Shown one piece after another: positions 7,200-44,244 of a DNA stretch of 64,000 nucleotides. Position numbers and translations under genes: made by a program. Under the pieces are notes generated by a model. The model saw nothing but the letters and a program-made list of their open reading frames with translations. It had not been told where the DNA came from and did no database searches. Positions within the stretch are counted from its first letter, which is position 1. Each line of letters begins with the position of its first letter. The stretch comes from Pseudanabaena frigida (GTDB lineage: Bacteria; Cyanobacteriota; Cyanobacteriia; Pseudanabaenales; Pseudanabaenaceae): contig QBML01000003.1 in NCBI GenBank assembly GCA_003242085.1, positions 124,001 to 188,000 on the forward strand, read 5' to 3'.

Positions 7200-10100
7200 A
7201 TGAGCGATCGCACCAATATAATTGCAGATCACAATCGCGATGCCTTACGTCGATTGACGAGAATTGTGACGCGATCGCAGGGATTTTCATTGTCAATCGC
7301 TTTGTGTAACTATCGCGTATTGCAAGGTCGCGTATTACAGGACTTGCGATCGCAATTAGCAGAAAACAATTTACCAGAAACTGCGATCGCCATACTTGAA
7401 CTGAAACCTGACGCTAAGACTTTACTTGCACCAATTCAGGAATTGATGGGCGAGGTGCATCAATTGCCAACTGAGCAGAAGCCCAAGGTGCTAATGGTTT
7501 TGGGATTGGATGCGGTTACGGAAATCGAAGTGGTTTTGAAATCGGCAAATCGGGTACGAGAGGAATTTGCCAATTGTTTGGAATTTCCGATGGTACTGTG
7601 GCTGAGCGATCGCACTCAGGACATTTTGACCCGCGAGGCGAGCGATCTGGCGAACTGGACTACGGCAGGAGCGATCGAGTTTCGGCTGGAGCCTCTTGAG
7701 CTAAAGACGCTGGTACAAGCATCGACTGAAGAGATGTTCGATCGCTTTCAGGATGTTCGCAAACGTGAATCGATACATACAGCGATATCAGATCGGTTAC
7801 AGAAGTTTGAGCTAAAGACGGCGATCGCGGAGCTGGAAACTCAAGAGATAGAAATAGACGAAGAACTGAGGGCAAATCTTGATTTTGCTTTTGGTTGTAT
7901 TGCGTTTACTGAGTCGCAAATTGATTTGGCAAAGGAACTCTTTCAGAGGAGTCTGACGATTTGGCGGGGTAGGAATCAACTCAAGCAGGCGGTTTGTCTG
8001 TTGCAATTAGGAATGTGCGATCGCAATCAAGCTCTGCGCCATCGTTTTGACAAGGAGATATTTTATCTTTCATCACAGCAATATCTCACGGAATGCCTTA
8101 CAATTTTCCGACAATTGGAACGTGGGGATTTGGTAGCAGAATATATTAATTTTTTGACAGCAACAATGGAGGATTTATTGAGTCGGGAATCCCTCACCCC
8201 CAGCCCCTCTCCCAGAGGGAGAGGGGAGCAAGAAATGATTCTAACTTCCCCTCTCCCAGAGGGAGAGGGGCTGGGGGAGGAGAGTTTAGAAGCTCTCGCC
8301 AATGAAGCACTTGCACTACATCAAACCTATCCCAATCAATTGCGGGAAGCGCACGATCTCGCAATTTTGGCATCGGTGAGACTCTGGCATCATGACTATG
8401 CGTCGGCGCGGGAGTTAGCGGAGACTGCATTGGATCTTTATCGAGAAGGAGAAGCGCTAAAACTGCCGAATTTTCCATTTTCACAACGTTATGTCTATGG
8501 GAAGTATGAGCTATGGTTAGCAAAAGCCTTGGATGGATTGGGCGATCGCCAAGGTGCGATCGCAAGGCTAGAAGCGGTGCGTCATCAGTGGGAACATCAG
8601 TATGAGGCGCAGATCTATGTGTTGATTTTGGAGGAATTGCGATCGCTTTATACTGCCGCAGGTTTATATTTAGAAGCTTTTGAGACGAAGCAACATCAGC
8701 GATCGGTGGAGCAGCAGTATGGCTTACGTGCATTTATCGGGGCGGGTACGCTGAACCCTACGCGGGATGCAAATAATCCGAATATATATACAGAAGTTGC
8801 GAATCAGTCGGATAGCATTGCTCAAGAGATTGAGGCTTCAGGGCGGATGCTGGATGTGCAGAACTTAGCCGATCGCATCGGTCAGGCGAGATTTCCCTTG
8901 ACGGTGATTCATGGCGATTCAGGGGCAGGGAAAAGTTCGATCCTTAGTGGTGGCTTGGTTCCTGCGTTACGCACAAAGGGAACAATTGATGGGCGGAAGG
9001 TTTTAGTTTTTGCAATCAAAAATTATAAAGATTGGAGTGCGGAAGTCAAACGCAAGTTACAAAAGTATTTTGGCGATCGCCGTCCCGATCTCGATCCAAT
9101 TCAGCATTTCAAACGCAATATTGATGAGAATTATTTGACAGTATTGATTTTCGATCAGTTTGAGGATTTCTTTTTTAAGAAGGAAGATTTTCGCGATCGC
9201 CTACCGTTTTATAAGTTCCTCAAGGCTTGTTTGCATACAGATTTTGTGCGGGTGGTGTTGTCGCTACGGGAGGACTATCTGCATTATTTGTTGGAATGCG
9301 ATCGCGCGGTGGATTTGGAAAAGGTGGAGAATGATATTCTCGGTAAGCAGGTGCGGTACTATTTGGGGGATTTTACGCAGGCACAGGCGCGACAGGTGAT
9401 CGAGACGTTGACTAGGCGATCGCAGTTACGTTTAGAGCCTGAGTTAATCGATCGCCTTGTGACAGATTTGAGTGGTGAGCAGTTGCGGATTTTGCCGATT
9501 GAGTTGCAGGTGGTGGGGGCGCAGTTGGAGTCAGAAAATCCTCCTATTTCTACGCTTCAGCAATATCTGTCTCTGACGGGTAATACTGCTGAGAATAGGG
9601 GACGCAAGCCGAGTGAGGTGTTGGTGGAGCGGTGGTTGGAGAATGTGGTGCGGGATTGTGGGGTGGGGAATAAGGATTTGGCGGAGAGGGTGTTGTATGC
9701 GTTGACGGGGAATGAGGAGAAGCGTCCGCAAAAGACGCAAGCGGAGCTTGCGGCGGAGTTGTTGGGTGAGGTTTCAGGTGATGGTTTTCGATCCCCCCCA
9801 GCCCCCCTTAAAAAGGGGGGAGAAGAGTTAAACCAAGTTCCCCTTTTTAAGGGGGATGCCGAAGGCAGGGGGATCGAGCCTCTCAACGAAGCAGAAAATC
9901 TCTCGCTGGTGCTAGCGGTTCTAGTCGGCTCTGGACTTGCTTTTCGGGTGAGTAGTTCGCCTGATGACCGTTTTCAGTTGATTCATGATTATTTGGTTAG
10001 CTTTATTCGCAAAAAGTATGTCTTCGGTATGGCGGAAGAGTTGCGGATGACCAAAGAACAATTGCGATCGGCTCTAGAAGCGAAAGAAAAAGAACTCCAA

Positions 10101-12272
10101 CGTGCCGAAATTGCCGAAATCGAAGCGGTGAGCATCACCTGTGAGGCTTATTGGCTTGCCCATAAAGAACTAGATGCGATGTTGGCAGGATTAAGAGCCG
10201 CAAAGCGCATCTTCGATCCTGATATCCGTAAGATTATTCCAAATTATACTGAGGGCAGAACCTTTGGGCGATTGTGGGAAGTCATCTATAACATTCGAGA
10301 AGCTAATCGCCTCGATGGGCATAGCGGCTGGGTTAGGAGCATTGCCTTCTCTCCCAATGGTAAAGCCATAGCATCTGGTAGTTCTGATAGCACAATCAAG
10401 TTATGGAATCTTGACGGCAAAGAACTGCATACACTCACTGGGCACAGAGGTGGAGTTAATAGTGTGGCATTCTCACCAGATGGCAAAACTATCGCCTCTG
10501 GTAGTGAAGACAAAACGATCAAATTATGGAGTCTCAATGGTAGAGAACTCCAAACCATTACAGGGCATGGCAATTCGGTCTATAGTATCGCATTCTCACC
10601 AGATGGCAAAACCATCGCCTCTGGTAGTGAAGACAAAACAATCAAATTATGGAATCTTGAGGGTAAGGAACTACTTACCCTCATAGGTCATAGCATTGCT
10701 GTTCGTAGCGTGGCATTCTCACCCGATGGCAAGACCGTCGCTTCTGGCGGCTCTGATAGCACTATCAAACTATGGAACCTAGATAATAAAAAATGGAATC
10801 TTGGGGGGAGGAGTCTCCGTACAATCAAGGTTCCTGAAGCTGTGGTTTGGAGCGTGGCATTCTCACCCGATGGCAAAACCATCGCCTCTAGTAGTACGGA
10901 CAATACGATTAAACTATGGAATCTTGATGGCAAAGAACTGCTTACACTTACGGGGCATAGTGATGGGGTTATGTGTGTCGCTTTCTCGCCCGATGGCAAA
11001 ACCATCGCCTCTGGTAGTTGGGACAAAACGATCAAATTATGGAATCTTGATGGCAAAGAACTGCGTACACTCAAGGGTCATAGCAATATTGTTTTTAGCG
11101 TAGTATTCTCACCCGATGGCAAAACCATCGCCTCTGGTAGTTGGGACAAAACGATCAAACTATGGAATCTTGATGGCAAAGAACTGCCTACACTTAAGGG
11201 TCATAGCAATATTGTTTTTAGCGTAGTATTCTCACCCGATGGCAAAACCATCGCCTCTGGTAGTTGGGACAAAACGATCAAACTATGGAATCTTGATGGC
11301 AAAGAACTGCCTACACTTAAGGGTCATAGCAATATTGTTTTTAGCGTAGTATTCTCACCCGATGGCAAAACCATCGCCTCTGGTAGTTGGGACAAAACGA
11401 TCAAACTATGGAATCTTGATGGCAAAGAACTGCCTACACTTAAGGGTCATAGCAATATTGTTTTTAGCGTAGTATTCTCACCCGATGGCAAAACCATCGC
11501 CTCTGGTAGTTGGGACAAAACGATCAAACTATGGAATCTTGATGGCAAAGAACTGCTTACACTTACGGGGCATAGTGATGGGGTTACATGTGTCGCTTTC
11601 TCGCCCAATGGCAATTCTATCGCCTCTGGTAGTGGGGACAAAACGATCAAACTATGGAATCTTGATGGTAAGGAATTGATCACTCTACACGGACATAGAA
11701 GTAAAGTTTCGAGCGTGGCATTCTCACCAGATGGCACAATCATCGCCACTGGTAGTTATGACAAAACAATCAAATTATGGAATTGTGATGGTAAGGAACT
11801 ACAAACGTGCACAGGTCATAGTAGTCTTGTCTCAAGCGTCTCTTTCTCACCAGATAGTCAAACCATAGTATCTAGCAGTGGGGACAACACGATCAGATTA
11901 TGGAATCTTGAAGGTAACGAACTACGAATTTTCACAGGGCATAATGATAGCGTTTTGAGTGCAGGTTTCTCTCCCGATGGCAAAACCATCGCCTCTAGTA
12001 GTAAGGACAATACGATTAAACTATGGAATCTCGAAGGAAAAGAACTGCGGACGCTCACCAATCATAGAGGGGTTTGGAGCGGGGTTTGGAGCGTTGCCTT
12101 TTCTCCTGATGGCAAAACCATCGCCTCTGGCAGTTCTGACGACTCCATCAAATTATGGGATATCGATCCAGAGTTAGCAATTTCTAAAGCCTGCGATTGG
12201 CTACGTCCATACCTCACCAATAACCCCAATGTTTCTGAAAGCGACAGACAACTTTTGGGAAGTAAAAAGTAG
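7200..12272 (+). CDS. STAND-type NTPase with 15 WD40 repeats
   Basis: 1690 aa. Residues 1-175 look like an NTPase-like fold without a P-loop (VLMVLGLDAV then FPMVLWLSDR). Residues about 200-520 are helical and TPR-like. A STAND NTPase follows, with Walker A GDSGAGKSS at 572-580 and Walker B near 646-655 (LIFDQFED). Residues about 1038-1658 hold 15 WD40 repeats. STAND proteins are signal-sensing switches that oligomerise when triggered, and many act in defence or programmed cell death. Here the WD40 part would be the sensor; no known toxic domain is visible. Four WD40 units are almost identical at DNA level. Two dispersed repeats are inserted in frame at residues ~331-360 and ~864-893. The partner ATPase ends 11 bases upstream. 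Confidence 0.9.
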   Translation: MSDRTNIIADHNRDALRRLTRIVTRSQGFSLSIALCNYRVLQGRVLQDLRSQLAENNLPETAIAILELKPDAKTLLAPIQELMGEVHQLPTEQKPKVLMVLGLDAVTEIEVVLKSANRVREEFANCLEFPMVLWLSDRTQDILTREASDLANWTTAGAIEFRLEPLELKTLVQASTEEMFDRFQDVRKRESIHTAISDRLQKFELKTAIAELETQEIEIDEELRANLDFAFGCIAFTESQIDLAKELFQRSLTIWRGRNQLKQAVCLLQLGMCDRNQALRHRFDKEIFYLSSQQYLTECLTIFRQLERGDLVAEYINFLTATMEDLLSRESLTPSPSPRGRGEQEMILTSPLPEGEGLGEESLEALANEALALHQTYPNQLREAHDLAILASVRLWHHDYASARELAETALDLYREGEALKLPNFPFSQRYVYGKYELWLAKALDGLGDRQGAIARLEAVRHQWEHQYEAQIYVLILEELRSLYTAAGLYLEAFETKQHQRSVEQQYGLRAFIGAGTLNPTRDANNPNIYTEVANQSDSIAQEIEASGRMLDVQNLADRIGQARFPLTVIHGDSGAGKSSILSGGLVPALRTKGTIDGRKVLVFAIKNYKDWSAEVKRKLQKYFGDRRPDLDPIQHFKRNIDENYLTVLIFDQFEDFFFKKEDFRDRLPFYKFLKACLHTDFVRVVLSLREDYLHYLLECDRAVDLEKVENDILGKQVRYYLGDFTQAQARQVIETLTRRSQLRLEPELIDRLVTDLSGEQLRILPIELQVVGAQLESENPPISTLQQYLSLTGNTAENRGRKPSEVLVERWLENVVRDCGVGNKDLAERVLYALTGNEEKRPQKTQAELAAELLGEVSGDGFRSPPAPLKKGGEELNQVPLFKGDAEGRGIEPLNEAENLSLVLAVLVGSGLAFRVSSSPDDRFQLIHDYLVSFIRKKYVFGMAEELRMTKEQLRSALEAKEKELQRAEIAEIEAVSITCEAYWLAHKELDAMLAGLRAAKRIFDPDIRKIIPNYTEGRTFGRLWEVIYNIREANRLDGHSGWVRSIAFSPNGKAIASGSSDSTIKLWNLDGKELHTLTGHRGGVNSVAFSPDGKTIASGSEDKTIKLWSLNGRELQTITGHGNSVYSIAFSPDGKTIASGSEDKTIKLWNLEGKELLTLIGHSIAVRSVAFSPDGKTVASGGSDSTIKLWNLDNKKWNLGGRSLRTIKVPEAVVWSVAFSPDGKTIASSSTDNTIKLWNLDGKELLTLTGHSDGVMCVAFSPDGKTIASGSWDKTIKLWNLDGKELRTLKGHSNIVFSVVFSPDGKTIASGSWDKTIKLWNLDGKELPTLKGHSNIVFSVVFSPDGKTIASGSWDKTIKLWNLDGKELPTLKGHSNIVFSVVFSPDGKTIASGSWDKTIKLWNLDGKELPTLKGHSNIVFSVVFSPDGKTIASGSWDKTIKLWNLDGKELLTLTGHSDGVTCVAFSPNGNSIASGSGDKTIKLWNLDGKELITLHGHRSKVSSVAFSPDGTIIATGSYDKTIKLWNCDGKELQTCTGHSSLVSSVSFSPDSQTIVSSSGDNTIRLWNLEGNELRIFTGHNDSVLSAGFSPDGKTIASSSKDNTIKLWNLEGKELRTLTNHRGVWSGVWSVAFSPDGKTIASGSSDDSIKLWDIDPELAISKACDWLRPYLTNNPNVSESDRQLLGSKK
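8191..8280. repeat. Dispersed GC-rich repeat inserted in frame in the STAND gene
   Basis: Two hairpins CCCCTCTCCC-AGA-GGGAGAGGGG flanked by CCCTCACCCCCAGC at the left and GCTGGGGGAGG at the right. This pattern is familiar as a dispersed, usually intergenic repeat in cyanobacterial genomes. Here it stays open in the STAND frame and codes a Pro/Gly/Arg/Glu-rich linker (SLTPSPSPRGRGE..., SPLPEGEGLGEE). Confidence 0.85.
9789..9876. repeat. Second dispersed repeat inserted in frame in the STAND gene
   Basis: Begins with CGATCCCCCCCAGCCCCC and ends with GGGGGATCG, with internal CCCCTTAAAAAGGGG-type palindromes. The same pattern is common between genes in cyanobacteria. It encodes a linker (SPPAPLKKGGEE, VPLFKGDAEGRG) between the NTPase lid region and the next helical part without breaking the frame. 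A decayed relative lies at 52282-52321. Confidence 0.85.
11075..11566 (+). repeat. Four near-identical 123-bp WD40 units
   Basis: Units start at 11075, 11198, 11321 and 11444, exactly 123 bp (41 codons) apart. They are essentially identical, except that the last diverges at its end. Each encodes one WD40 blade with GHSNIVFSVVFSPDG. Identity at synonymous sites points to recent tandem expansion or gene conversion. Confidence 0.95.
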
Positions 12273-12312
12273 AAAGTAAAAAGAAAAAAATTTGGATTGA
12301 TTCGTTTTGTAG

Positions 12313-12524
12313 GGGCGTAGCATTTGCGCCACAATCTTGAACACCAACAGACAAACCCAATCCGCAAATGCTACGCCCTCTTCGCTTTCACGGATAAATC
12401 ATCCCTGCCCTAACCTCCCCACCTTCACCGATAAATCGTCTCTACATTGCGAATTTCTGGGCAAAGCATTCCCAAAATAAAGCGATCTTAAAAATTGATA
12501 GATTACTGCGGAAATGCTTTGCCC
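12313..12524. repeat. Inverted repeats in the 338-base gap after the STAND gene
   Basis: The gap 12273-12610 holds no gene. Two related inverted pairs occur. GGGCGTAGCATTTGCG at 12313-12328 pairs with 12363-12378, and GGGCAAAGCATT at 12459-12470 pairs with 12513-12524. Both include the motif GGGGC(A/G)(A/T)AGCATT, which looks like a dispersed cyanobacterial repeat. Confidence 0.65.
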
Positions 12525-12610
12525 CTACATGGCTTTCTATTTAAGATTCCGACATCCACAAAATTGCAGTTATAGGCAGTGTTAGCGATCACACTACTTG
12601 AAAAGTCACT

Positions 12611-12874
12611 TTATTTTTCGTAGTGAAATTTGCAACTCAAAATGATCACCGCATCCTCACTCACCTTATAGACCAAACGGTGTTCATCCGTAATCCGCCT
12701 TGACCAACAACCTTTCAATTCATGCTTGAGTGGTTCAGGCTTCCCAATACCTGTAAATGGATTGCGTAACGTATCATCAATCAATTCAACAATTTTGGCA
12801 TAAACCTTTTTATCTTCCTTTACCCAGCCATTAAACTGTTGGAAAGCCTTTTGCTCAAATATGATATTTCTCAT
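12611..12874 (-). CDS. yoeB: Txe/YoeB-family toxin
   Basis: 87-aa ribosome-dependent mRNA interferase of the RelE superfamily. It matches YoeB closely, with GKPEPLK, WSRRITDEHRLVY and the C-terminal FHY. Arg66, His84 and Tyr85 align with the catalytic Arg65, His83 and Tyr84 of E. coli YoeB. The ATG at 12874 lies within the end of the antitoxin gene (20-base overlap), so translation is coupled. All catalytic residues are present, so the toxin is probably active unless held by its antitoxin. Confidence 0.95.
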   Translation of the reverse strand: MRNIIFEQKAFQQFNGWVKEDKKVYAKIVELIDDTLRNPFTGIGKPEPLKHELKGCWSRRITDEHRLVYKVSEDAVIILSCKFHYEK

Positions 12875-13103
12875 GCCACTCCTCTGCCGAGAAAGAAATC
12901 AAATTTTCGCCACTCTCCACATTGGCGATCGCAGCTAAAAGGCGATCGCGATTTGCCTTTGTCGAAAGTAAATACTCTGTTTCATCCTGAGACTCAACCA
13001 ACAAAATTACTTCAATTGCAGTACCTTCAGCTAATTCAGGTGCATGAAGCTCGATTTTGCCATCTTTGCCCACAATGCCAAACTGCTTAATTGCCGTAAC
13101 CAT
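12855..13103 (-). CDS. Antitoxin of the YoeB pair
   Basis: About 82 aa. The C-terminal half (ETEYLLSTKANRDRLLAAI...) matches the toxin-neutralising part of YefM-type antitoxins. The N-terminal half (IVGKDGKIELHAPELAEGTAIEVILLVE) looks like an AbrB/SpoVT-type swapped-hairpin segment, not the usual YefM/Phd fold. Two ATGs are possible: a GGAGGT ribosome site abuts the one at 13109, so the second, at 13103 with six bases of spacing, is the better start. It overlaps the yoeB start and probably represses its own operon. Confidence 0.85.
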   Translation of the reverse strand: MVTAIKQFGIVGKDGKIELHAPELAEGTAIEVILLVESQDETEYLLSTKANRDRLLAAIANVESGENLISFSAEEWHEKYHI

Positions 13104-24557: not shown

Positions 24558-24887
24558 ATGAAGACCTCTACGTTAAAAATCCTCGCACTAACTATTAATT
24601 TACTAGGTATTCCAGCGACTTTGCTTACAGGAATTTTTGCTGTGGAAGCTCCTATAATATTAATCTATGCATCAAATGGCAGAGCCTCTTTCTGGGCGAT
24701 CGCTGCATTGGGATTTTGTTTTGTACTGCTACCTATTTTACTGATAGGTGCCGAAATATCTGGCTGGCAAAATTTTAAACAACGGAAATATATCGATTCT
24801 ATTAGTGCATACAAATGGGTGCTTGCAGACCTTTTAATCATGCTATTTCTCGCAGTTGCCATGAGTGCAGGTTGGGTAAATAAGTAA
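24558..24887 (+). CDS. Small membrane protein, unknown function
   Basis: 109 aa, not recognised. Three hydrophobic segments are predicted by eye, at about 7-35, 43-66 and 86-104. A short charged loop (QNFKQRKYID) lies before the last. It stands alone between the carbonic anhydrase gene and the nuclease-STAND gene. An HIP1-like site (GCGATCGC) within it suggests it is native to this genome, unlike the next gene. Confidence 0.6.
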   Translation: MKTSTLKILALTINLLGIPATLLTGIFAVEAPIILIYASNGRASFWAIAALGFCFVLLPILLIGAEISGWQNFKQRKYIDSISAYKWVLADLLIMLFLAVAMSAGWVNK

Positions 24888-25085
24888 CTAATAAGCTCCA
24901 TAGTGAAATCATTCCGAAAAATCATATAAGTTGTGTTTGTTAAGTGTGCTCGATAGGCAAGTAAAAATAAAATTTTGGATAAAATGACTTTGCTTATAGT
25001 GATACTTACAAAGTACTGATGAGAGAATATAGAATAACAATGTTTGTTATGAGTAATTTAAGTATAACTAGTAGCCTATTAGCAT

Positions 25086-28000
25086 ATGGCTGAAGACTTT
25101 AAGCCCATGAATAGATCTGCGGAAGCCGCGATTCGTGGTTATGTTTATCAAGTTGATGTAACCATTGAACGATGGCTCAAGCTAGATCCTAATGAGTACT
25201 TGGAGCTTGAGTGTGGTGAAGATATTGATCACATTTTTGAAAATGGAAGAACAACGGTGCAGGTCAAGGATGTTAAAAGCAATACGTTGACTCTTTTAAG
25301 TGGACTTGAATCGATCATTAATTTTGTTAAAAATTGTAAAGCTAATCCAAGTCAGAATTTATATTTCTTGTACATAACAACAGCATCTGTAGGGAAAGAA
25401 AGGAATTTACCGCCTATTTTTAGAGGACAACCATCAATTGAAATATGGGAGCAAATTCGTCAAGATTGTCTTGGTGATATTCCACAAAATGAGGCTTTGA
25501 TAGGTATACGCGATGTTTTATGTAACTCACAAAAATATGAAGAAAAAGCGAATCAGAATGTTTTGAGAGACTACATCTGCAATGCTAATAATGATGATTT
25601 GCTTAAAATTGTCCATCGATTTCAGTGGCTTTATGAGAATCTATCTTCTGACTCAATTGGCCATCAAATCATACAGATGTTAATGAAAAAATATGATCTT
25701 ATAGAAGAAGTTAAAGCCAAGGAATTATACAACCGCTTATTCATTTACGTTTTTAAAGCGCTGACACGATCAGGTGTGAAACGGCTAACTATCGACAACT
25801 TAACAGAGCAAATTGAATGTCCAAAACTGAGTTGTGAGGATGAAAGCCTCTTAGAGCTGGTAAATCAAGTAAATATTCGTGTTTCCAAGCTTGAGGAAGA
25901 TGTTTACGATCTTGGTGGGCGAGTATCTAATCTCGAAAAGGGTAATGGGAAATATGATGATAATCTGATAAGTCAACCAGAACGATTAGAAAAGCGAAAG
26001 CTTCTTTGTAGACAGCACTTTATCGAAAGTCTACGTGTATTTGTAGATGATGACACTGCTATTAAACTTGCTAATGATTCCTCGATTTGGACACCACTTT
26101 CTGAGTTAAATCTTCGCTATGGGGAAGTTAACTTTTTAGTTGGTGACATTGGTATAGGGAAGACAGCTATTGCACTACGCATCTATCAAGAAGCTCTTGA
26201 AAAATTTGAAATAGATAAAGATGCACCAATACCTGTTTTTCTTGAATCTGGAGCATGGTGTCAGGATAAATACATCAAAACATCTATAGAGAACGCTATC
26301 TATGGATGGGGAAATCCTGAAGAGAGAGGCGTTATAGCAATTCTTGATGGATTCGATCAGGTAGGAGTAGAGATTACTAGTGATATTCCGAGACAAGCTA
26401 ATCTTTTAGTTGTAGATTGGGATAAAACCACCATAATTATTACTAGTAGATCTATTCGCCTTCTAGACAATATTGAAAATAAAATCCATATTCCTCAACT
26501 TTCAGAAAAACAGTCGTATGAGTTAATAGCGAAAGCATCTGGTCTTGCAATGACAGCAATGATCTGTTCTGGATGGACATTAGCTATCCAAGAAGCTATT
26601 CGTTATCCTCTATTTGCTCTTATTATGGCTAGTTATTTAAAACAAGATTTAGTAAATTCTCCACAGTCAACTGGAGAATTACTTTCATGGCTTGTTGATG
26701 ACGCTCTAAGGCGTTCTAAGGTGGAGTATGTCAATTATGAAAGTCTATTACAACAATTAGCATTGCAATCTATAGAAAATGGAGGACAAGGGATTCGAGC
26801 TACAGATATTGCAAAAAGTAATCAGATAAAGCTACTTTTAGACTCTGGTTTGGTTGTTGCTCGTTCTAGAGATGTAATTTCATTTCCTTTGCAAATTCTT
26901 GATGAGTGGTTTGCTGCCAAAAGTCTAGAGGATAATCCCGAAAAGGTTAGAGAATTTGCAAATAATCCTCAACAGTTGGAAAAATGGCGATTTTCTCTAA
27001 CTATTGCTGTAGCAACTTTTAGATTTGATATAGTATCGAAAATGCTACAGCCAATTGTAGAAATATTTCCTGCTTTTGTTGTTGAGCTTGTAATTAGGGC
27101 ATCAACACGTTGGGGAAGAAAAGAAAGGCAACTTCCCACTTTTTATAAATGTGGGCAACAAATTCAAACTGCAATGCAATTATGGGCAAAGGGGCTAATG
27201 CATTTAGCAGAAATTGCTATTCCTATTCAGAATGACGGAAAAGTTTGTCCTATAGGAGTTAAAACTGATGGAATAAGACTTGAAACAGCTTGGTATGTGG
27301 GCACTGACTTGCTTGACGAAGATGTTGTTGAACTGCCAGAAGAATGGGATGATGATTTTTATAGTAAAAGATTGAATTGGCGTAATGGCACATCTTCTGA
27401 CCCTAGTGATGAGTCTGCATGGGCATGGAGATGGACAATAAACGTAATCTTTAGAAACCTATCAGATAGACTTAAATACCCAATTTTACCTGTTGACAGC
27501 CAACCACTTATCAAAGAGGCAGCTTGGCGTTGCGCTTTGGCAATTATTGAGTACCGACGAAGGAAAAGAATTACGAAGATTAAGCTTAATTGGTGGGGAA
27601 TTGAGCATTTCTCTATAGAAGAGATTATTGAAACAGTTTTTGAAATTGAACAAGCAGCTTTACAGAACATTGATATTACGCTGTCGGATATTTCAGACTT
27701 AGTAGATATAAACGTTCAAGCATATTTTCTTAAGCAACTGAAAATAGAAATATATTATTTGCTTGAGAAGAATGAGACAATAATGCACAGCATGTATCCA
27801 GTTCCAGATATAGATGGAGGTAAAAGGCTATGGCAACTTTACAGTAATGCTCAGTTAAGTTTACGAGTAAAAATGGTCTATAAAAATGCACTTGATGCTT
27901 ATCAAGAGATAACTCATACATGGTTCAATCAACTGATTCCTAATATGCAAGTTAGTGCCATGTTGCCCGCTCGTCTTGTCGGTATAATTATTATGCCTCT

Positions 28001-28331
28001 ACCTGATCGATCACTACTTGATATGCCATACCTAGATTGGTTTTTAGAACCATTATCAAAAAATTCAGAGAATGAAGTTGAGATTACATTTATTGAACGT
28101 GGTGCTGACAGAACAAATTACGATAACAGAAGAGAATTAGCCTCAAACAAGATTAAGTTATTGCGTTCTAAATATGCAGTCTGGATATCAAACTATTGGC
28201 ACAAAGATGCACTGGATGATGATTTCTTTTTACATAGCCCAGCTACGAAACTAGCATACTCATGGTTACAAAAAGATCTCGTAAAAATATTTGGATTTAA
28301 TACCTTCCCCCGTGAAACAAAGACAAGTTAG
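25086..28331 (+). CDS. Cap4/DUF4297-like nuclease fused to a STAND NTPase
   Basis: 1081 aa. Residues ~10-210 match the dsDNA-nuclease domain found in Cap4 and some Avs proteins: RGYVYQ, then an acidic pair near ECGEDID (42-48) and QVK (59-61) as a PD-(D/E)XK site. A coiled coil (~263-290) follows. The NTPase has Walker A GDIGIGKT at 353-360 and Walker B VIAILDGFD at 416-424. The rest (~500-1081) is a helical sensor of unknown type. In related proteins the C-terminus senses a phage product and oligomerisation unleashes the nuclease. The whole gene lacks GCGATCGC sites and is AT-rich, which suggests transfer. No partner gene is needed or seen. Confidence 0.85.
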   Translation: MAEDFKPMNRSAEAAIRGYVYQVDVTIERWLKLDPNEYLELECGEDIDHIFENGRTTVQVKDVKSNTLTLLSGLESIINFVKNCKANPSQNLYFLYITTASVGKERNLPPIFRGQPSIEIWEQIRQDCLGDIPQNEALIGIRDVLCNSQKYEEKANQNVLRDYICNANNDDLLKIVHRFQWLYENLSSDSIGHQIIQMLMKKYDLIEEVKAKELYNRLFIYVFKALTRSGVKRLTIDNLTEQIECPKLSCEDESLLELVNQVNIRVSKLEEDVYDLGGRVSNLEKGNGKYDDNLISQPERLEKRKLLCRQHFIESLRVFVDDDTAIKLANDSSIWTPLSELNLRYGEVNFLVGDIGIGKTAIALRIYQEALEKFEIDKDAPIPVFLESGAWCQDKYIKTSIENAIYGWGNPEERGVIAILDGFDQVGVEITSDIPRQANLLVVDWDKTTIIITSRSIRLLDNIENKIHIPQLSEKQSYELIAKASGLAMTAMICSGWTLAIQEAIRYPLFALIMASYLKQDLVNSPQSTGELLSWLVDDALRRSKVEYVNYESLLQQLALQSIENGGQGIRATDIAKSNQIKLLLDSGLVVARSRDVISFPLQILDEWFAAKSLEDNPEKVREFANNPQQLEKWRFSLTIAVATFRFDIVSKMLQPIVEIFPAFVVELVIRASTRWGRKERQLPTFYKCGQQIQTAMQLWAKGLMHLAEIAIPIQNDGKVCPIGVKTDGIRLETAWYVGTDLLDEDVVELPEEWDDDFYSKRLNWRNGTSSDPSDESAWAWRWTINVIFRNLSDRLKYPILPVDSQPLIKEAAWRCALAIIEYRRRKRITKIKLNWWGIEHFSIEEIIETVFEIEQAALQNIDITLSDISDLVDINVQAYFLKQLKIEIYYLLEKNETIMHSMYPVPDIDGGKRLWQLYSNAQLSLRVKMVYKNALDAYQEITHTWFNQLIPNMQVSAMLPARLVGIIIMPLPDRSLLDMPYLDWFLEPLSKNSENEVEITFIERGADRTNYDNRRELASNKIKLLRSKYAVWISNYWHKDALDDDFFLHSPATKLAYSWLQKDLVKIFGFNTFPRETKTS

Positions 28332-28452: not shown

Positions 28453-28485
28453 AAAAAAGCAGTCCGTCAAACAGGCTGCTTTTTT
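28453..28485 (+). terminator. Intrinsic terminator after the nuclease-STAND gene
   Basis: AAAAAAGCAG (28453-28462) pairs with CTGCTTTTTT (28476-28485), and the T-run is part of the stem. The gap 28332-28653 holds no gene. Confidence 0.8.
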
Positions 28486-28518
28486 GTTGATTGCTTACTC
28501 ACGCGAACAAGCGATCGC
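28459..28518. repeat. 60-bp segment duplicated at 30132-30191
   Basis: 54 of 60 bases match 30132-30191, including TTTTTTGTTGATTG, TTACTCACGCGAACA and GCGATCGC. Both copies lie about 120-140 bases before a Uma2 gene, so the upstream flank of the locus was duplicated. Confidence 0.85.
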
Positions 28519-28653
28519 TAATAAATTGAACGCCTAAAATCGCAATAAATTCACATTGTTACCCAAAAACCACCCCACTCAAGAGAATGGGATATTATAT
28601 GAGTAGCAATTGGGAATTTAGATCTTACTTTTTATCTTGAGAGGCAAGAGGTT

Positions 28654-29313
28654 ATGGTTGCAATAGTTGAGACAGAAAAAGTTTCAAGTCAAAGCTTTAT
28701 TCTGAAAGAATGGATATCAGCAACTTGGGAAGATTTCTTGCAGATATCTCAGGCAGCAAGCAATGACAAGGCAAAATTTTACTATTTTCAAGGGAGTTAC
28801 TACAGCGAAATGGGTGTTGGTGCAGATCATGCCTTTGTAAATACAGTAGTGATCATCCTGATTTCACTTTATTGTATGAAGAGAAATATCTTAGCTAAAG
28901 GCTATACGAACTGTAGTTATCGCAAAGTGGGAATACGAGAATGTCAGCCTGACATTTCTTATTATGTAGGCGATCGCACTCAGAATGCACCTCAAAGTAG
29001 CGCGATCGTCGATCTTGATGAGAGTTTGCCCCCTGATATCGTGATTGAGATTGCCGATACCTCATTAGGCTATGACCTCGGCGCAAAGCGCTTGCTATAC
29101 GAAGAAGTGCGTGTCGGTGAATATTGGGTAATCGATGTCCAGAACATGAAAATCACTGCGTTCCGTATTTTGCAGGGTTTAGGGAGCGAAAGGATTACAG
29201 AATCCTCAGTATTAGGAGGATTGCGATTGAGTTTATTAGAAGAAGCTTTACAACGTAGCCGTGAAATAGATAATTCCCAAATTGGTTCTTGGTTTATGGA
29301 ACAGTTAGGTTAG
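28654..29313 (+). CDS. Uma2-family (DUF820) endonuclease-fold protein, copy A
   Basis: 219 aa. The family has a PD-(D/E)XK restriction-endonuclease-like fold. It is very numerous in cyanobacteria and its function is unproven. Visible features are LPPDIVIEIADTS (acidic residues of the core) and the later strand VGEYWVID. AAGAGG is the ribosome site before the ATG. A decayed copy of its 3' end lies at 30930-31025. It is the first of four Uma2 genes within 4 kb. Confidence 0.85.
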   Translation: MVAIVETEKVSSQSFILKEWISATWEDFLQISQAASNDKAKFYYFQGSYYSEMGVGADHAFVNTVVIILISLYCMKRNILAKGYTNCSYRKVGIRECQPDISYYVGDRTQNAPQSSAIVDLDESLPPDIVIEIADTSLGYDLGAKRLLYEEVRVGEYWVIDVQNMKITAFRILQGLGSERITESSVLGGLRLSLLEEALQRSREIDNSQIGSWFMEQLG

Positions 29314-29353
29314 AGAGATAAATTTTCCTGATTGCTCCTAAAATTGTTAGCCA

Positions 29354-30001
29354 TTAAGGCAATTCACCAAATCGATCGCGATATTGCTGTAATAAAACTT
29401 GGGCTTCAGCAAGTTGTTGAGTAGTTTGCTCTAGTAGTTGATTAACCTCAATGTATGAGTAAAACTTTGTGCCGTCGGGTTTGTAGAGTTGGATACGACC
29501 TGTGGATGTATCAAAGCGCACTTCGAGGCGAGGACTCGTCCAGTTATCGGATTGGGCGATCGGTTCTAGTCCTTCGCTAGTGCGAATCCAGATGTCGAGA
29601 AGATTGGTTTCGGGGTCGTAAAGATAATATTCCTCGACTTTGTGGCGATCGAAGAAGAGAAGCTTTTTACTCATTTCAATGCGATCGTTACTGGGAGAGA
29701 GAATCTCGAAGACAACTTGGGGGGCGATGTTCTCTTCTTCCCATTGTTTGTAAGAGCCGCGATCGCCTTTGGGACGACCGAAAACCACCATAACATCAGG
29801 GGCAGTGACAATTTTGGACTGTCCTTGAACGGGATACCAGAAAAGGTCGCCTGCAATGAAGACGTTAGGTTCGTTGATATAGAGTAGATCTAAGCCTTTT
29901 TTGATTTCAACGATGAGTTCAAACTGTTTGGTATTGTCTGCCATTGGCTTACCATCGCTGTCAGGGTAGATGATTTCAGGTTTGCTGATTTGACTGACCA
30001 T
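29354..30001 (-). CDS. Uma2-family (DUF820) endonuclease-fold protein, minus strand
   Basis: 215 aa. Core residues of the nuclease fold are seen in TAPDVMVVFG, QVVFEILSPSNDR and the strand VEEYYLYDPETN. After the core, residues ~165-210 form a helical tail (VNQLLEQTTQQLAEAQVLLQQY) likely to be a coiled coil, as in many longer Uma2 members. It is convergent with copy A and divergent from copy B. Function is unproven, as for the family. Confidence 0.85.
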   Translation of the reverse strand: MVSQISKPEIIYPDSDGKPMADNTKQFELIVEIKKGLDLLYINEPNVFIAGDLFWYPVQGQSKIVTAPDVMVVFGRPKGDRGSYKQWEEENIAPQVVFEILSPSNDRIEMSKKLLFFDRHKVEEYYLYDPETNLLDIWIRTSEGLEPIAQSDNWTSPRLEVRFDTSTGRIQLYKPDGTKFYSYIEVNQLLEQTTQQLAEAQVLLQQYRDRFGELP

Positions 30002-30131
30002 GATGGTTGTCTCCTGAACTGGTGTTTGGATTGTTTTGATTATAGTGGAGATTTTTCGATGTGTTTACGGAATTTGATAGTGATGATCGGTATCCCTTAC
30101 TCGCTAGAGGATGCTTACGTCTCATAAAAGA

Positions 30132-30191
30132 GCTGTGCATCAAACAGGCTGATTTTTTGTTGATTGATTACTCACGCGAACAGGCGATCGC
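30132..30191. repeat. Second copy of the duplicated 60-bp segment
   Basis: 54 of 60 bases match 28459-28518. The terminator stem of the first copy is degraded here. It lies in the 310-base gap 30002-30311, which has no gene. Confidence 0.85.
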
Positions 30192-30311
30192 CTAAAAACC
30201 GTAAGACAAACCATCTGATAAAATATAGCTGAGGCTCAGTTGTCATAATTGCGAGAATATCCTCAATAAATTAGGAACGCATCAACTTTTTTGCAAAAAA
30301 GGAGTACTAAA

Positions 30312-30893
30312 ATGACTACAGTGATTCAATCGCCAGTGATAGAGAAAGACACATTGCAGCGAATGACATTGGCGGAATTTTTGGCAAGCCCTGAGTCGGA
30401 TCGGAATTATGAATTTATCGATGGTCAAGCCATAAGAAAAATGTCGCCCAAAAGATTTCATGCTTCTTTACAAGCAGAATTATTGATTTTTTTGCGGACT
30501 CTGTTTGAAGGCAAAGGCTTTGTCTATCCAGAATGGGGAATTGTGTTAAAACGCAATGAACAAGATTGGTGTCCCGTGCCTGATTTGACCTATATTTCGA
30601 TAGAACGATTGCCTAATGATGTCGGTAATGAAATGTGTCCAGTACCGCCAGAGTTAGTAATTGAGATTATGTCAGAGGGACAGACTTTTAAGGAGTTTGT
30701 AGCGAAGGCTGGTGATTACTTGAAAGCTGGGATATTACGAGTATGGGTTATCGATCTGATGAGCAGAACTTTCACGGTGTTCTATCCCGATCGCTCACCC
30801 GAAACTTATCAAGGCGATCGCCAATTAACCGATGAGTTGTTCCCAGACTTAGCAGTGACAGCAGAGCAGTTTTTTGTAAAGGCAAGAATTTGA
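30312..30893 (+). CDS. Uma2-family (DUF820) endonuclease-fold protein, copy B
   Basis: 193 aa from the ATG at 30312, chosen because GGAG lies seven bases upstream; the open frame begins slightly earlier. Core features are the start TLAEFLASPESDRNYEFIDGQ, the strand PVPDLTYIS, the acidic PPELVIEIMSEG, and ILRVWVIDLM. It sits between a duplicated upstream segment (30132-30191) and a remnant of copy A (30930-31025). It therefore occupies the place of a second copy A. Confidence 0.87.
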   Translation: MTTVIQSPVIEKDTLQRMTLAEFLASPESDRNYEFIDGQAIRKMSPKRFHASLQAELLIFLRTLFEGKGFVYPEWGIVLKRNEQDWCPVPDLTYISIERLPNDVGNEMCPVPPELVIEIMSEGQTFKEFVAKAGDYLKAGILRVWVIDLMSRTFTVFYPDRSPETYQGDRQLTDELFPDLAVTAEQFFVKARI

Positions 30894-31688: not shown

Positions 31689-31852
31689 ACCTTGATAATT
31701 CCTTTTTAGAAATTTCTGACTTATCGGTATCGCAATTGTCAGGAATTTCTAAATAAAGAGGATGTCTTTTTCGTCGTTTTTGTTCTGATAAAATATAACT
31801 GATGATAGCTACAGGCAAACTTAAAAAACTATGCATCAGGAGAATATCAAGC

Positions 31853-32500
31853 GTGACAGTCACTATTCCCATCAAATCGATTGATCTACGATATGGTAGT
31901 GCGATCTCCATTCATTCTCTGAGTTGGCGTGATTGTGAAGACATCCTTAATGAGCTAGGTGAAGATCGCCATACTCGCATTGCATACTATCAAGGCACTC
32001 TAGAAATTATGTCCCCATTATCCAGACATGAGCGCCCCCATCGTCTCGCGGGTTATATTGTGACGGCAATTTTAGACGCGCAAGGGAGAGATTGGGAAGA
32101 TTTTGGCTCAACTACCTTTTATCGAAAAGGAATGGCTGGTGTGGAACCTGATACTTGTCTCTATGTGACTAATTCAGCTTTAGTCCGTGATTGTCAGGAA
32201 CGTATTGATGTGGATATCTATCCGCCACCTGATTTAGCGATCGAGTCAGATGTAACTTCTAAAACCTTGTTATCTGCTTACGAAGCGATCGCAGTGCCTG
32301 AAGTTTGGATTTATCGTGATGATAGCTTGAAGATATTTTTACTCACTAATGGACATTATCTGGAGTCAGAGAGTAGTTTGCTTTTTCCAGATATGGCAAT
32401 CAAGAATCTGATTCCACAGCTTGTAAATCAAGCGATCGCGATCGGAACAAGCACTATGTTAAGAGAGTTTCGCAAATCTTTAAGCAATACTTATAAATAA
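31853..32500 (+). CDS. Uma2-family (DUF820) endonuclease-fold protein, fourth copy
   Basis: 215 aa from the GTG at 31853, which has AGGAG ten bases before it; upstream codons to 31802 are probably not translated. Features are SWRDCEDILNELGEDRHTRIAYYQGTLEIM at the N-terminus (spread over residues ~23-53), VEPDTCLYV, and PPDLAIESDVTS, where the usual Glu is followed by Ser-Asp. Then comes VPEVWIYRDD. It is more distant from copies A and B than they look at the flanks. Function is unproven. Confidence 0.85.
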   Translation: MTVTIPIKSIDLRYGSAISIHSLSWRDCEDILNELGEDRHTRIAYYQGTLEIMSPLSRHERPHRLAGYIVTAILDAQGRDWEDFGSTTFYRKGMAGVEPDTCLYVTNSALVRDCQERIDVDIYPPPDLAIESDVTSKTLLSAYEAIAVPEVWIYRDDSLKIFLLTNGHYLESESSLLFPDMAIKNLIPQLVNQAIAIGTSTMLREFRKSLSNTYK

Positions 32501-40689: not shown

Positions 40690-40882
40690 AGGTTTGATAA
40701 GATGAAAATTTTGAGAGTGATTTTTTGGGGTTTGACTGGCTCTAATGGCGATCGCTATAAGTTATAAGGACATAGTGGCATTAGTTCTTGACTTCAGTCT
40801 TAATAAAACGTTTAATGCAATAGCTACCTGCCCATTGGGGATGTAACTGGTTAAAATTTTTGTATAGAGATTATTAAAACTA

Positions 40883-41590
40883 ATGAAATATTTTTCTGCA
40901 CAAGAACTGGTCGATATTTACAATCAAAAAGTTAAAAAAAGTCCAGAATACTTTCAAAAATATGCATCTTTAGAACCTTATATTGACGATAAAATAGCAA
41001 ACCTTTTAAATGGCAAGGACTATCCAAGAGTCCCTTGTGTATTAGATTTTAAAGAATGGATTAAAAAGTACAATATTATTCCAGAGAAATTACTCTGTAC
41101 TTGTAGTGATGATTTTGAATTAAGTTATATTGACCCTAAAATAGGATATTTACTACAGTATGAAATTTCCAATAATACTGGGGATCTACACACGTTTAAT
41201 TTAACTGAAAAAGACTTTGACTTTATTATATTTTCACAAACCTTAGAGCATCTTTATAACCCCTTTGTGGCGGTTGAAAAAATTTACGAGCATGTGAGAC
41301 CTGGTGGATTTGTTTTTACGAGTGTTCCAGCTATTAATATTCCTCACTTAGTTCCATTCCATTTCTCTGGAATATATCCGATGGGTCTTGCCGTGTTATT
41401 TGAATCCGCAGGTTTTACAATCTTAGAAATGGGGCAATGGGGTAATTTGCACTATTTAGAATACATTTTTAAGCATCATGGATGGCCAGATTATGAATAT
41501 CTTAAATCTCTCGGCAGAGGGACTATAACTAACGAAGAAGCAAATATTGCTCAATGTTGGTGTCTTGCTCAGAAAATTACTACTGATTAA
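40883..41590 (+). CDS. SAM-dependent methyltransferase
   Basis: 235 aa. Class I methyltransferase of the Methyltransf_23 type. The glycine-rich motif I is degenerate (LLCTCSDDFELSYID). Motif II/III is clear in DFIIFSQTLEHLYNPFVAVEKI and HVRPGGFVFTSVP. The C-terminal part (FESAGFTILEMGQWGN) is typical of sugar or small-molecule methyltransferases near polysaccharide genes. The substrate is unknown. Its AT-rich composition and absence of HIP1 suggest recent arrival. Confidence 0.8.
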   Translation: MKYFSAQELVDIYNQKVKKSPEYFQKYASLEPYIDDKIANLLNGKDYPRVPCVLDFKEWIKKYNIIPEKLLCTCSDDFELSYIDPKIGYLLQYEISNNTGDLHTFNLTEKDFDFIIFSQTLEHLYNPFVAVEKIYEHVRPGGFVFTSVPAINIPHLVPFHFSGIYPMGLAVLFESAGFTILEMGQWGNLHYLEYIFKHHGWPDYEYLKSLGRGTITNEEANIAQCWCLAQKITTD

Positions 41591-41647
41591 GAGATGTGTT
41601 TTGAATAACTAGTTCTCCTGTATCAATGCAAGTTTCGCTTAGGACAT

Positions 41648-41689
41648 AAAACCCAAACAAATAGAGGCGCCTCTATTTGTTTGGGTTTT
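41648..41689. terminator. 42-bp perfect palindrome, AAAACCCA ends
   Basis: Arms 41648-41668 and 41669-41689 pair perfectly with no spacer. Ends AAAACCCA/TGGGTTTT, centre GAGGCGCCTC. A family member lacking the three-base loop. Confidence 0.87.
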
Positions 41690-41882
41690 GATTTTTCCTA
41701 GCTATTTCTTGTATTGCTGTAATTCGTTGCTTGGCGGTTGCTATCTACAGGCAAGATTAACCCATTGGTTTATGTATGTGATAAAAAAAAGAAAATAGCT
41801 GTCAGTCTTTAGTTTAGGTTACACTCCGTAATTTGGTGAATAATATGCAGTAATTTAATTATGTGCGTTTATTTAAAGAGAT

Positions 41883-44135
41883 ATGACCCCGACCCTCCCC
41901 ACCGAGCAAATCGATCGCATTGTGTGGAATCAGCACCACGATCCATTCGCTGTTCTAGGTCCACATGAAATTACGCAAGAAGGTAAGTCGGTCTGGGTGG
42001 TAAGAGCGTATCTACCCGACGCAGAAGCGGTATCTGTTGTTACGCCCGATCAACACAAAGAATATCCTATGCATTCGGTGCATCATCCCCACTTTTTTGA
42101 ATGCATTATTAGTGACGCGCCCCACCTATTTAACTACCAATTTAAAGTTAAGTCTGGAGTCAGCTATCAGCTAATCCACGATCCCTACTACTTCAAGTCA
42201 CCCTTGATGAGTGAGTTTGATACTTACTTATTTGGCGAAGGTACACATTACCAAATTTACGAAAAAATGGGTGCTCACTGCACCACTATTGATAACGTAA
42301 GTGGCGTTTATTTTGCTGTATGGGCTCCAAATGCGCGTAACGTCTCCATTATCGGGGACTTTAATAGCTGGGATGGACGCAAACATCAAATGCGTAAAGG
42401 AAATACAGGTGTTTGGGACTTATTTGTCCCCGATCTGCAAGTCGGTACAGTCTACAAATATGAAATTAAAAGTCCAGAAGGGCATATTTACGAAAAATCT
42501 GACCCCTACGGCTTCTTTCAGGAGATTCGCCCTAAAACGGCTTCAATTGTTGCCGATCTCGATACCTATGAATGGAACGACCAAAAATGGCTAGAAAAGC
42601 GTCGTAGTGAAGACCCACTGAAAAAGCCCATCTCAGTCTATGAAATGCATCTTGGATCGTGGATGCACGCTGCGGCTGTAAGTCCTCCTGAAAGTGGCTA
42701 TCCAGCCGTTTCGGCTGCCGATCTTAAGCCTGGTGCTAGATTTCTGACCTATCGCGAACTAGCCGAAGACCTAATTCCCTACGTTAAGGAAATGGGCTAT
42801 ACCCATATCGAAATGATGCCTGTTGCCGAACATCCTTTCGATGGTTCGTGGGGCTATCAAGTCACAGGTTATTATGCCGCAACCTCTCGTTATGGCACAC
42901 CCCAAGATTTGATGTATTTCATCGACCAATGCCATCAAAATGATATTGGGATTATTGTCGATTGGGTTCCCGCGCATTTTCCTAAGGATGGTCATGGGCT
43001 CTCTTTCTTTGATGGCACATTTTTATACGAACCTGCTGATGTTCGCATTGGTGAGCATAAAGAATGGGGAACTAAAATCTTTAACTACAAACGTAGTGAA
43101 GTCAAAAACTTTTTGATTGCCAATGTTCTATTTTGGTTTGATAAGTACCACATTGATGGAATCCGCGTTGATGCCGTTGCCTCGATGATCTATCGTGACT
43201 ACAATCGTGACCCAGGAACATGGTTGGCTAACGAGTATGGTGGTCGTGAAAGTCTGGAAGCGATCGAGTTATTCCGTCATCTTCATAGTATTTTATTTAC
43301 TTATTACCCAGGGGCGCTTTCCATCGCTGAAGAGTCTACTTCTTGGCCGATGGTGACTTGGCCAGCTTATTCAGGTGGTTTAGGCTTTAACTTGAAGTGG
43401 AATATGGGCTGGATGCATGACATGCTCGATTATTTCAAGCTCGATCCATATTTCCGCGGACATAATAACAACTATCTCACCTTTAGCATTTGGTACGCCT
43501 TTAGTGAGAACTTCATGCTCGCGCTTTCCCATGACGAAGTGGTGCATGGCAAGAGTCCGATGATTGGCAAGATGCCTGGGGATGAATGGCAGAAGTTTGC
43601 TAACTTGCGCTGTCTCTATGGCTATATGTTCACGCACCCAGGCAAGAAGACTATGTTTATGGGTATGGAGTTTGGACAGTGGTCGGAATGGAATGTATGG
43701 GGTGATTTGGAATGGCATTTACTGCAATACCCTAGCCACAAAACGCTTCAGAAATATGTTGGCGACCTCAATAAACTATTACGATCGCTGCCCGAACTCT
43801 ATACTCAAGACTTCTCTCCTGAAGGGTTTGAATGGATTGAGTGCAATGATACTCAAAACTCAGTAATTTCGTTCTTGCGTAAAGGACTAGATAATGAGTT
43901 TGTCTTAGTTGTTTGTAACTTTACTCCTGTCGTACACCATAACTATCGTGTTGGCGTTCCCGAAAAAGGCTTCTATAAAGAAGTTCTCAATAGTGATGCG
44001 CCGATTTATGGTGGTAGTGGTATTGGCAATCTAGGCGGTAAATATACCGATGACTATGGTAGTCATGGTAAGCCTTATTCGCTTGATGTAACTGCGCCTC
44101 CTTTAGGAGTAGTTGTCCTAAAGTATCTGGGCTAA
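41883..44135 (+). CDS. glgB: 1,4-alpha-glucan branching enzyme
   Basis: 750 aa, full length. It makes alpha-1,6 branches in glycogen. Order: an N-terminal CBM48-type domain pair (DPFAVLGPH at 20-28, then VYFAVWAPNARNVSIIGDFN), the (beta/alpha)8 GH13 domain with catalytic DGIRVDAV, AEEST and LSHDEVVHGK, and a C-terminal beta domain. It stands alone; no other glycogen gene is in view. Hairpins follow the stop. Confidence 0.97.
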   Translation: MTPTLPTEQIDRIVWNQHHDPFAVLGPHEITQEGKSVWVVRAYLPDAEAVSVVTPDQHKEYPMHSVHHPHFFECIISDAPHLFNYQFKVKSGVSYQLIHDPYYFKSPLMSEFDTYLFGEGTHYQIYEKMGAHCTTIDNVSGVYFAVWAPNARNVSIIGDFNSWDGRKHQMRKGNTGVWDLFVPDLQVGTVYKYEIKSPEGHIYEKSDPYGFFQEIRPKTASIVADLDTYEWNDQKWLEKRRSEDPLKKPISVYEMHLGSWMHAAAVSPPESGYPAVSAADLKPGARFLTYRELAEDLIPYVKEMGYTHIEMMPVAEHPFDGSWGYQVTGYYAATSRYGTPQDLMYFIDQCHQNDIGIIVDWVPAHFPKDGHGLSFFDGTFLYEPADVRIGEHKEWGTKIFNYKRSEVKNFLIANVLFWFDKYHIDGIRVDAVASMIYRDYNRDPGTWLANEYGGRESLEAIELFRHLHSILFTYYPGALSIAEESTSWPMVTWPAYSGGLGFNLKWNMGWMHDMLDYFKLDPYFRGHNNNYLTFSIWYAFSENFMLALSHDEVVHGKSPMIGKMPGDEWQKFANLRCLYGYMFTHPGKKTMFMGMEFGQWSEWNVWGDLEWHLLQYPSHKTLQKYVGDLNKLLRSLPELYTQDFSPEGFEWIECNDTQNSVISFLRKGLDNEFVLVVCNFTPVVHHNYRVGVPEKGFYKEVLNSDAPIYGGSGIGNLGGKYTDDYGSHGKPYSLDVTAPPLGVVVLKYLG

Positions 44136-44169
44136 GTCTAGACATAGCTATAGACATAAAACCCAGAAG

Positions 44170-44244
44170 AGAGTAGCGGCGGGAGCAAAGCATCGCTACT
44201 CTATAGCAATAAAGGGAGCGCTTAGCGCTCCCTTTATTGCTATA
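44170..44244. terminator. Double hairpin between glgB and the transporter gene
   Basis: First AGAGTAGCG/CGCTACTCT (44170-44178, 44194-44202), preceded by AAAACCCAG. Then 20-bp perfect arms 44202-44221 and 44225-44244 around TTA, with core GGGAGCGC/GCGCTCCC. It serves the convergent glgB and transporter genes. Confidence 0.85.

Follow-up and report, generated by a model that had tools for sequence, protein, structure and literature searches.

The gene and its three parts

The window analysed here, a stretch of 64,000 nucleotides, belongs to a cyanobacterial-type host genome of 5.4 Mb with HIP1 sites at 1.6 per kb. It carries on the forward strand a gene opened by ATG and read through 1081 codons without interruption, whose product is a tripartite protein composed of a DUF4297/Cap4-like nuclease, a NACHT-type STAND switch and a C-terminal module that has no library match. 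The gene, its parts and the edges of the slot that holds it are the following:

24558..24928, +: left slot edge, a small membrane-protein-like ORF (24558-24887) and the following bases, common to same-genus genomes; homology to the sister genome G016 stops at 24928
25086..28331, +: whole gene (nuclease, NACHT, C-terminal module), an open reading frame of 1081 aa
25086..25907, +: DUF4297/Cap4-like PD-(D/E)XK nuclease domain, residues 1 to about 274, from PADLOC LmuA/DUF4297 and profile matches to 8xav, 8ziq and 9c1m
25221-25223, 25260-25262 and 25266-25268, +: predicted nuclease active site (D46, Q59 and K61, respectively), invariant in 7 homologues and aligned to HerA-DUF4297
25983..27047, +: NACHT-type STAND switch with winged-helix/helical part, residues about 300-654, from the full-length model, Foldseek and conserved columns
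26142..26165, +: Walker A GDIGIGKT, residues 353-360, from sequence and conserved columns
26346..26360, +: Walker B DGFDQ, residues 421-425, from sequence and conserved columns
26907..26918, +: WFAA signature, residues 608-611, invariant among NACHT-type members
27048..28310, +: shared C-terminal module, proposed sensor, residues about 655-1075, from the profile start behind NB-ARC switches and the structure model
28453..28526, +: right slot edge, a recurring terminator-like repeat; G016 homology resumes at 28453, and Uma2 genes follow

A Pfam scan of the 1081-aa protein returned nothing above the family cut-offs. The N-terminal part was matched by the PADLOC models LmuA (residues 7-330, E 6e-18) and DUF4297 (residues 8-61, E 6e-9), and by the NCBIfam model DUF4297_antiphage at 3e-9 and 36 bits, a score far under the equivalog cut-off of 300. 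The solved DUF4297 structure 8xav was matched at 7e-4, and a seven-sequence profile, in which the window protein was aligned with proteins from Deinococcus, Sphingopyxis, Burkholderia, Rhizobium, Agrobacterium and Bradyrhizobium, matched 8xav at 5e-10, 8ziq at 3e-8 and 9c1m at 3e-5. The joint mutation D40A/Q53A/K55A in DUF4297 was reported to abolish defence by HerA-DUF4297 (PMC11291478). Their aligned counterparts in the window protein are D46, Q59 and K61, at equal spacing, and the three positions are invariant in 7/7 sequences, so the nuclease active site is predicted to be intact. The sequence-only reading had proposed a DUF4297/Cap4-like nuclease at this end, with which the LmuA match, the profile match to 8xav and the kept D/Q/K site agree; solved DUF4297 nucleases having been matched, the domain probably lies within the nuclease superfamily and not outside it. 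The fold itself is assigned from sequence, since the N-terminal domain of the full-length model has a pLDDT under 50, the alignment holding no homologous rows there.

The central switch is modelled with a NACHT fold, and Foldseek on the confident switch model placed the NACHT structures of NLRP3, NOD2 and NLRC4 best (E about 1e-8, probability 1.00), which are its nearest solved folds. The Pfam NACHT family was not reached by the window protein and was approached weakly by relatives, with 26.6 bits in L006 against a cut-off of 26.7. The NTPase, previously described as intact, does retain Walker A, Walker B and arginine 455, the last at a position conserved across the family. Its Walker B ends in DGFDQ, against DGLDE in many relatives, and this difference was counted against the reading of the protein as an immune receptor.

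A slot shared with CRISPR-Cas genes

The gene occupies a slot used by defence genes. In G016, a sister genome of the same genus, this slot holds genes for a WYL/WCX-type regulator, Cmr2 (Cas10) and RAMP proteins, together with a CRISPR array in which at least 43 repeats were counted, a type III CRISPR-Cas content placed at 1470-13402 of L085 (G016:C23:60000-78000). The same regulator and Cmr2 follow the left anchor in G019, up to the contig end, and in G021 and G017 regulator/Cmr2 genes adjoin Uma2 genes resembling those of the right anchor.

The terminator-like repeat of the right edge recurs several times near Uma2 genes, among other places at 30105-30198 and in L085. The Uma2-family genes, coding for putative endonucleases, form a cluster (28654-30893 and 31802-32500, the latter copy assigned through homologues rather than by family scan) that is reshuffled among same-genus genomes. 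L090 (G022:C3:138000-153000) encodes at 9107-12793 a large ATPase that looks like BREX BrxC on visual inspection, a few kilobases from a Uma2 gene similar to the one at the right anchor, possibly a further case of defence genes using this neighbourhood.

The gene has a GC content of 0.362 and a third-position GC of 0.258, the latter being lower than in any other of the 23 long open stretches tabulated for the window. A search of 25 same-genus genomes gave no full relative; one of them (G012) carries an NB-ARC-type member of the module family. Within the same genome, L002 (G000:C5:274727-276994) is a second cassette of NACHT and C-terminal module behind a different short N-terminus; it contains one in-frame TGA, which was left unmended, the two open stretches being read separately. 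Taken together, the slot content, the low third-position GC, the rarity in the genus and the second copy support a mobile accessory defence gene. The interrupted paralogue and the rarity in the genus would also suit a decayed remnant devoid of function, a very improbable reading for 1081 uninterrupted codons that keep both active-site and Walker residues.

Transfer had been suggested by the sequence-only reading from a missing HIP1 site. The absence is real, as the gene contains no GCGATCGC (HIP1), the flanking sites start at 24696 and 28511, and at the window mean of 1.6 per kb a stretch of 3246 bp would lack the site with a Poisson probability of 0.006. However, it is not distinctive, because HIP1-free gaps of similar size lie at 9416-12925 and 40748-44724 of the window, and 32/1216 sampled windows of the gene's length had no site. 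The missing site was thus ruled out as proof of transfer and argues for it weakly; transfer as such stood, with the third-position GC, the 25 genomes devoid of a full relative and the CRISPR-Cas content of the sister slot as the better evidence. The two other HIP1-free stretches measure 3.5-4.0 kb, and one of them covers an ORF of 752 aa whose composition is ordinary.

A C-terminal module behind exchanged effectors

The model of residues 600-1081 (pLDDT 87.8, pTM 0.89) predicts a mixed alpha/beta domain preceded by a short helical stretch. The claim that this C-terminus was unrecognised held in Pfam, NCBIfam, PADLOC, PDB and BFVD: the family scans returned no match, Pfam and PADLOC gave no convincing family match on 19 module members, and the fold searches stayed at chance level, with best E values of 0.31 for Foldseek on PDB and 0.17 on BFVD and, in a VIA fold search, a best Z of 5.3 over 111 residues. 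The missing PDB or BFVD match does not prove the modelled fold to be new, and a literature search that found no description of the family does not show that none exists.

A profile made of NACHT-type members only found the module behind NB-ARC switches in 4 cyanobacterial proteins (E 1e-37 to 1e-72), in which NB-ARC was confirmed by Pfam, and the same profile gave 0 matches against 2400 shuffled sequences. Since its matches in the NB-ARC proteins begin at profile position 55-88, the module starts near residue 655, whatever the switch type.

A scan of species genomes gave 20 loci in Cyanobacteria, Bacillota, Actinomycetota, Chloroflexota, Verrucomicrobiota and Deinococcota, and plasmid records added the module in Priestia, Niallia, Microbacterium, Rhodococcus and Nostoc. 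It is rare among Cyanobacteria (6/386 sampled genomes, one of the six being a fragment), and no viral relatives were found in IMG/VR or phage records. Across the six phyla, the module follows NACHT or NB-ARC switches and stands behind about ten N-terminal kinds:

DUF4297/Cap4: window protein
Second Cap4-like: L051 (PDC-M54A, 2e-11)
SMEK nuclease: L006 (= L045; Pfam, 3.5e-46)
HNH nuclease of the kind found in CBASS effectors: L038, L052 and L058
Alpha/beta hydrolase: L035
DUF4062: L046 (7e-9) and, weakly, L054
Caspase: L024 (1.9e-11)
EAD10: L018 (= L040) and L043, with L044 placed here through its close similarity
Uncharacterised helical: L037, L056, L057 and L060
HTH-like, tentative: L041 and L042

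Further module members carry N-termini of no assigned type. Among the listed kinds, DUF4062 has been reported to be an NADase that resembles TIR and acts against phage (PMC13174449). On a module tree of 27 proteins, at least 18 changes of N-terminal type were counted, with type labels assigned by the analyst and no shuffled baseline, and a six-member cyanobacterial clade that includes the window protein (support 100/100) displays five N-terminal types. For example, L041 from Microseira wollei and L042 from an Oscillatoriaceae MAG share 88.8% DNA identity over 2385 bp, from just upstream of the switch to the gene end, and blastn gave no match between the rest of the two loci, the N-termini being unrelated. 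The reverse pairing also occurs: in Deinococcus, Sphingopyxis and Bradyrhizobium, the nuclease type of the window protein heads other STAND/TPR-type proteins, some 1350 aa in length. The natural effector swaps, L041/L042 above all, would offer ready-made chimeras for asking whether specificity resides in the switch-sensor cassette or in the effector. On plasmid pn3 of Nostoc sp. UHCC 0926 (L040, 3289-12301), a caspase, an EAD10-NACHT protein with the same C-terminal module, a CHAT protein and a further NACHT protein were observed.

Across members, W736, E811 and Y939 of the module are invariant and W779, W781 and D1064 near-invariant, and identity to the nearest relative is 48% in the module versus 43% in the NTPase. 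Fast evolution of the C-terminus was rejected as a sign of a sensor, the module being about as conserved as the NTPase. This conservation and the six-phylum spread are unlike a fast-evolving recognition surface and were counted against the receptor reading.

A predicted single-gene immune receptor and its relation to known systems

The protein is read, at a probability of about 0.75, as a bacterial NLR-like (bNACHT-type STAND) immune receptor that works alone through nuclease-mediated abortive infection. This reading is drawn from the nuclease homology with its matching active site and the NLR-type NACHT fold, from the constancy of the C-terminal module while the N-terminus varies, from the occupation of the slot by CRISPR-Cas in the sister genome and from the precedent of bNACHT25 and bNACHT32, which carry a PD-(D/E)XK DNase required for protection (PMC12169576). 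The single-gene antiphage candidate of the sequence-only reading is upheld as the most likely reading, with a predicted nuclease, a STAND switch and an unrecognised C-terminus fused in one protein. Nuclease-NACHT single-gene receptors are already known, and the protein is very likely an anti-phage receptor of this general type; the undescribed part would be the proposed C-terminal sensor, which has no entry in the family and fold libraries searched.

By analogy with bNACHT25 (PMC12169576), Avs (PMC12931631) and DUF4297-HerA (PMC11291478), the NACHT switch would keep the resting protein inactive, with the C-terminal module folded onto it. A ligand supplied by infection would bind the module (residues about 655-1075), and the released NACHT would undergo nucleotide exchange and oligomerise, bringing the DUF4297/Cap4-like nuclease domains together. 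The assembled nucleases would then cut double-stranded DNA of host and phage, so that the infected cell would die or stop and the infection would be aborted, a course expected to protect against phage.

The position of the module and the exchange of effectors suggest that it acts as the sensor, in which case its conservation predicts a single shared trigger. With conservation on a par with that of the NTPase, the module would more probably read a host-derived cue or a conserved phage fold than a ligand that changes fast. It is conceivable, at somewhat short of even odds, that residues 655-1075 form a new-fold receptor domain reading one conserved infection cue in at least six phyla, as part of a mobile switch-plus-sensor cassette that gains killing domains at a fixed junction before the switch. 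With nuclease and switch unchanged, the module could instead be a guard that senses a host factor or an infection-altered host state; this is a possible though less probable option, which would accord with a module conserved across phyla and evolving no faster than the NTPase, and with bNACHT25, which senses infection via host DnaJ (PMC12169576). Conservation alone does not decide for the guard, however, because Avs proteins also read conserved phage folds, such as terminase and portal, without rapid divergence (PMC12931631). That the module acts as a further enzyme or as a platform for oligomerisation, with the trigger read elsewhere, is unlikely: its occurrence after both NACHT and NB-ARC switches and its few invariant polar and aromatic residues would allow this, but no enzyme fold was matched, and a place after the switch and constancy beside changing effectors are traits of a receptor part.

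An even less probable alternative to the immune receptor as a whole is that the gene serves a multicellular cyanobacterium as a switch for cell death or stress, unrelated to phage defence. The EAD10 and caspase partners belong to conflict and death systems enriched in multicellular prokaryotes (PMC7159879), but relatives are carried by unicellular Bacillota and Actinomycetota and by plasmids, the sister genome's slot holds CRISPR-Cas, and DUF4297 is an anti-phage effector.

The immune receptor proposed here shares with bNACHT proteins generally a central NACHT-type STAND, an N-terminal effector and a distinct C-terminal region, and with bNACHT25 and bNACHT32 (clade 6) the single gene in which an N-terminal PD-(D/E)XK DNase is placed on a NACHT switch (PMC12169576). 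The latter two carry a helical NCH1 C-terminus, where the window protein is predicted to have an alpha/beta module lacking a library match. Clade 14 carries a short SNaCT C-terminal domain; the module here has about 420 aa.

An Avs-type layout had been proposed as well. The effector-STAND-sensor order is indeed the same, Avs3 carrying a Cap4 domain on which the DUF4297 domain was superimposed (PMC11291478). However, the Avs label itself is not supported, because the switch is nearest in fold to the NLR-type NACHT of NLRP3, NOD2 and NLRC4 and the C-terminus is predicted as mixed alpha/beta with no repeat-family match, whereas Avs proteins have a C-terminal TPR-like repeat sensor. The PADLOC scan showed LmuA and DUF4297 only, and the profile touches solved Avs2 solely at the P-loop region (E 0.1).

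The nuclease of HerA-DUF4297 is homologous and has its active-site residues spaced alike (D-x12-Q-x-K), but it is activated there by a HerA ATPase partner, whereas no HerA gene was found among the neighbouring ORFs, which are instead the small membrane-protein-like ORF and the Uma2 genes. Unlike CBASS Cap4, the protein has no SAVED match in Pfam or PADLOC, and no CD-NTase-like gene was seen among the listed neighbouring ORFs, part of which were scanned. The likeness to Lamassu lies in the LmuA model matching the nuclease part; no LmuB (SMC-like) was found among the neighbouring ORFs, and the LmuA model does not include the NACHT and C-terminal parts. In the Priestia relative, it is the hydrolase that another LmuA model matches, at 1.5e-17.
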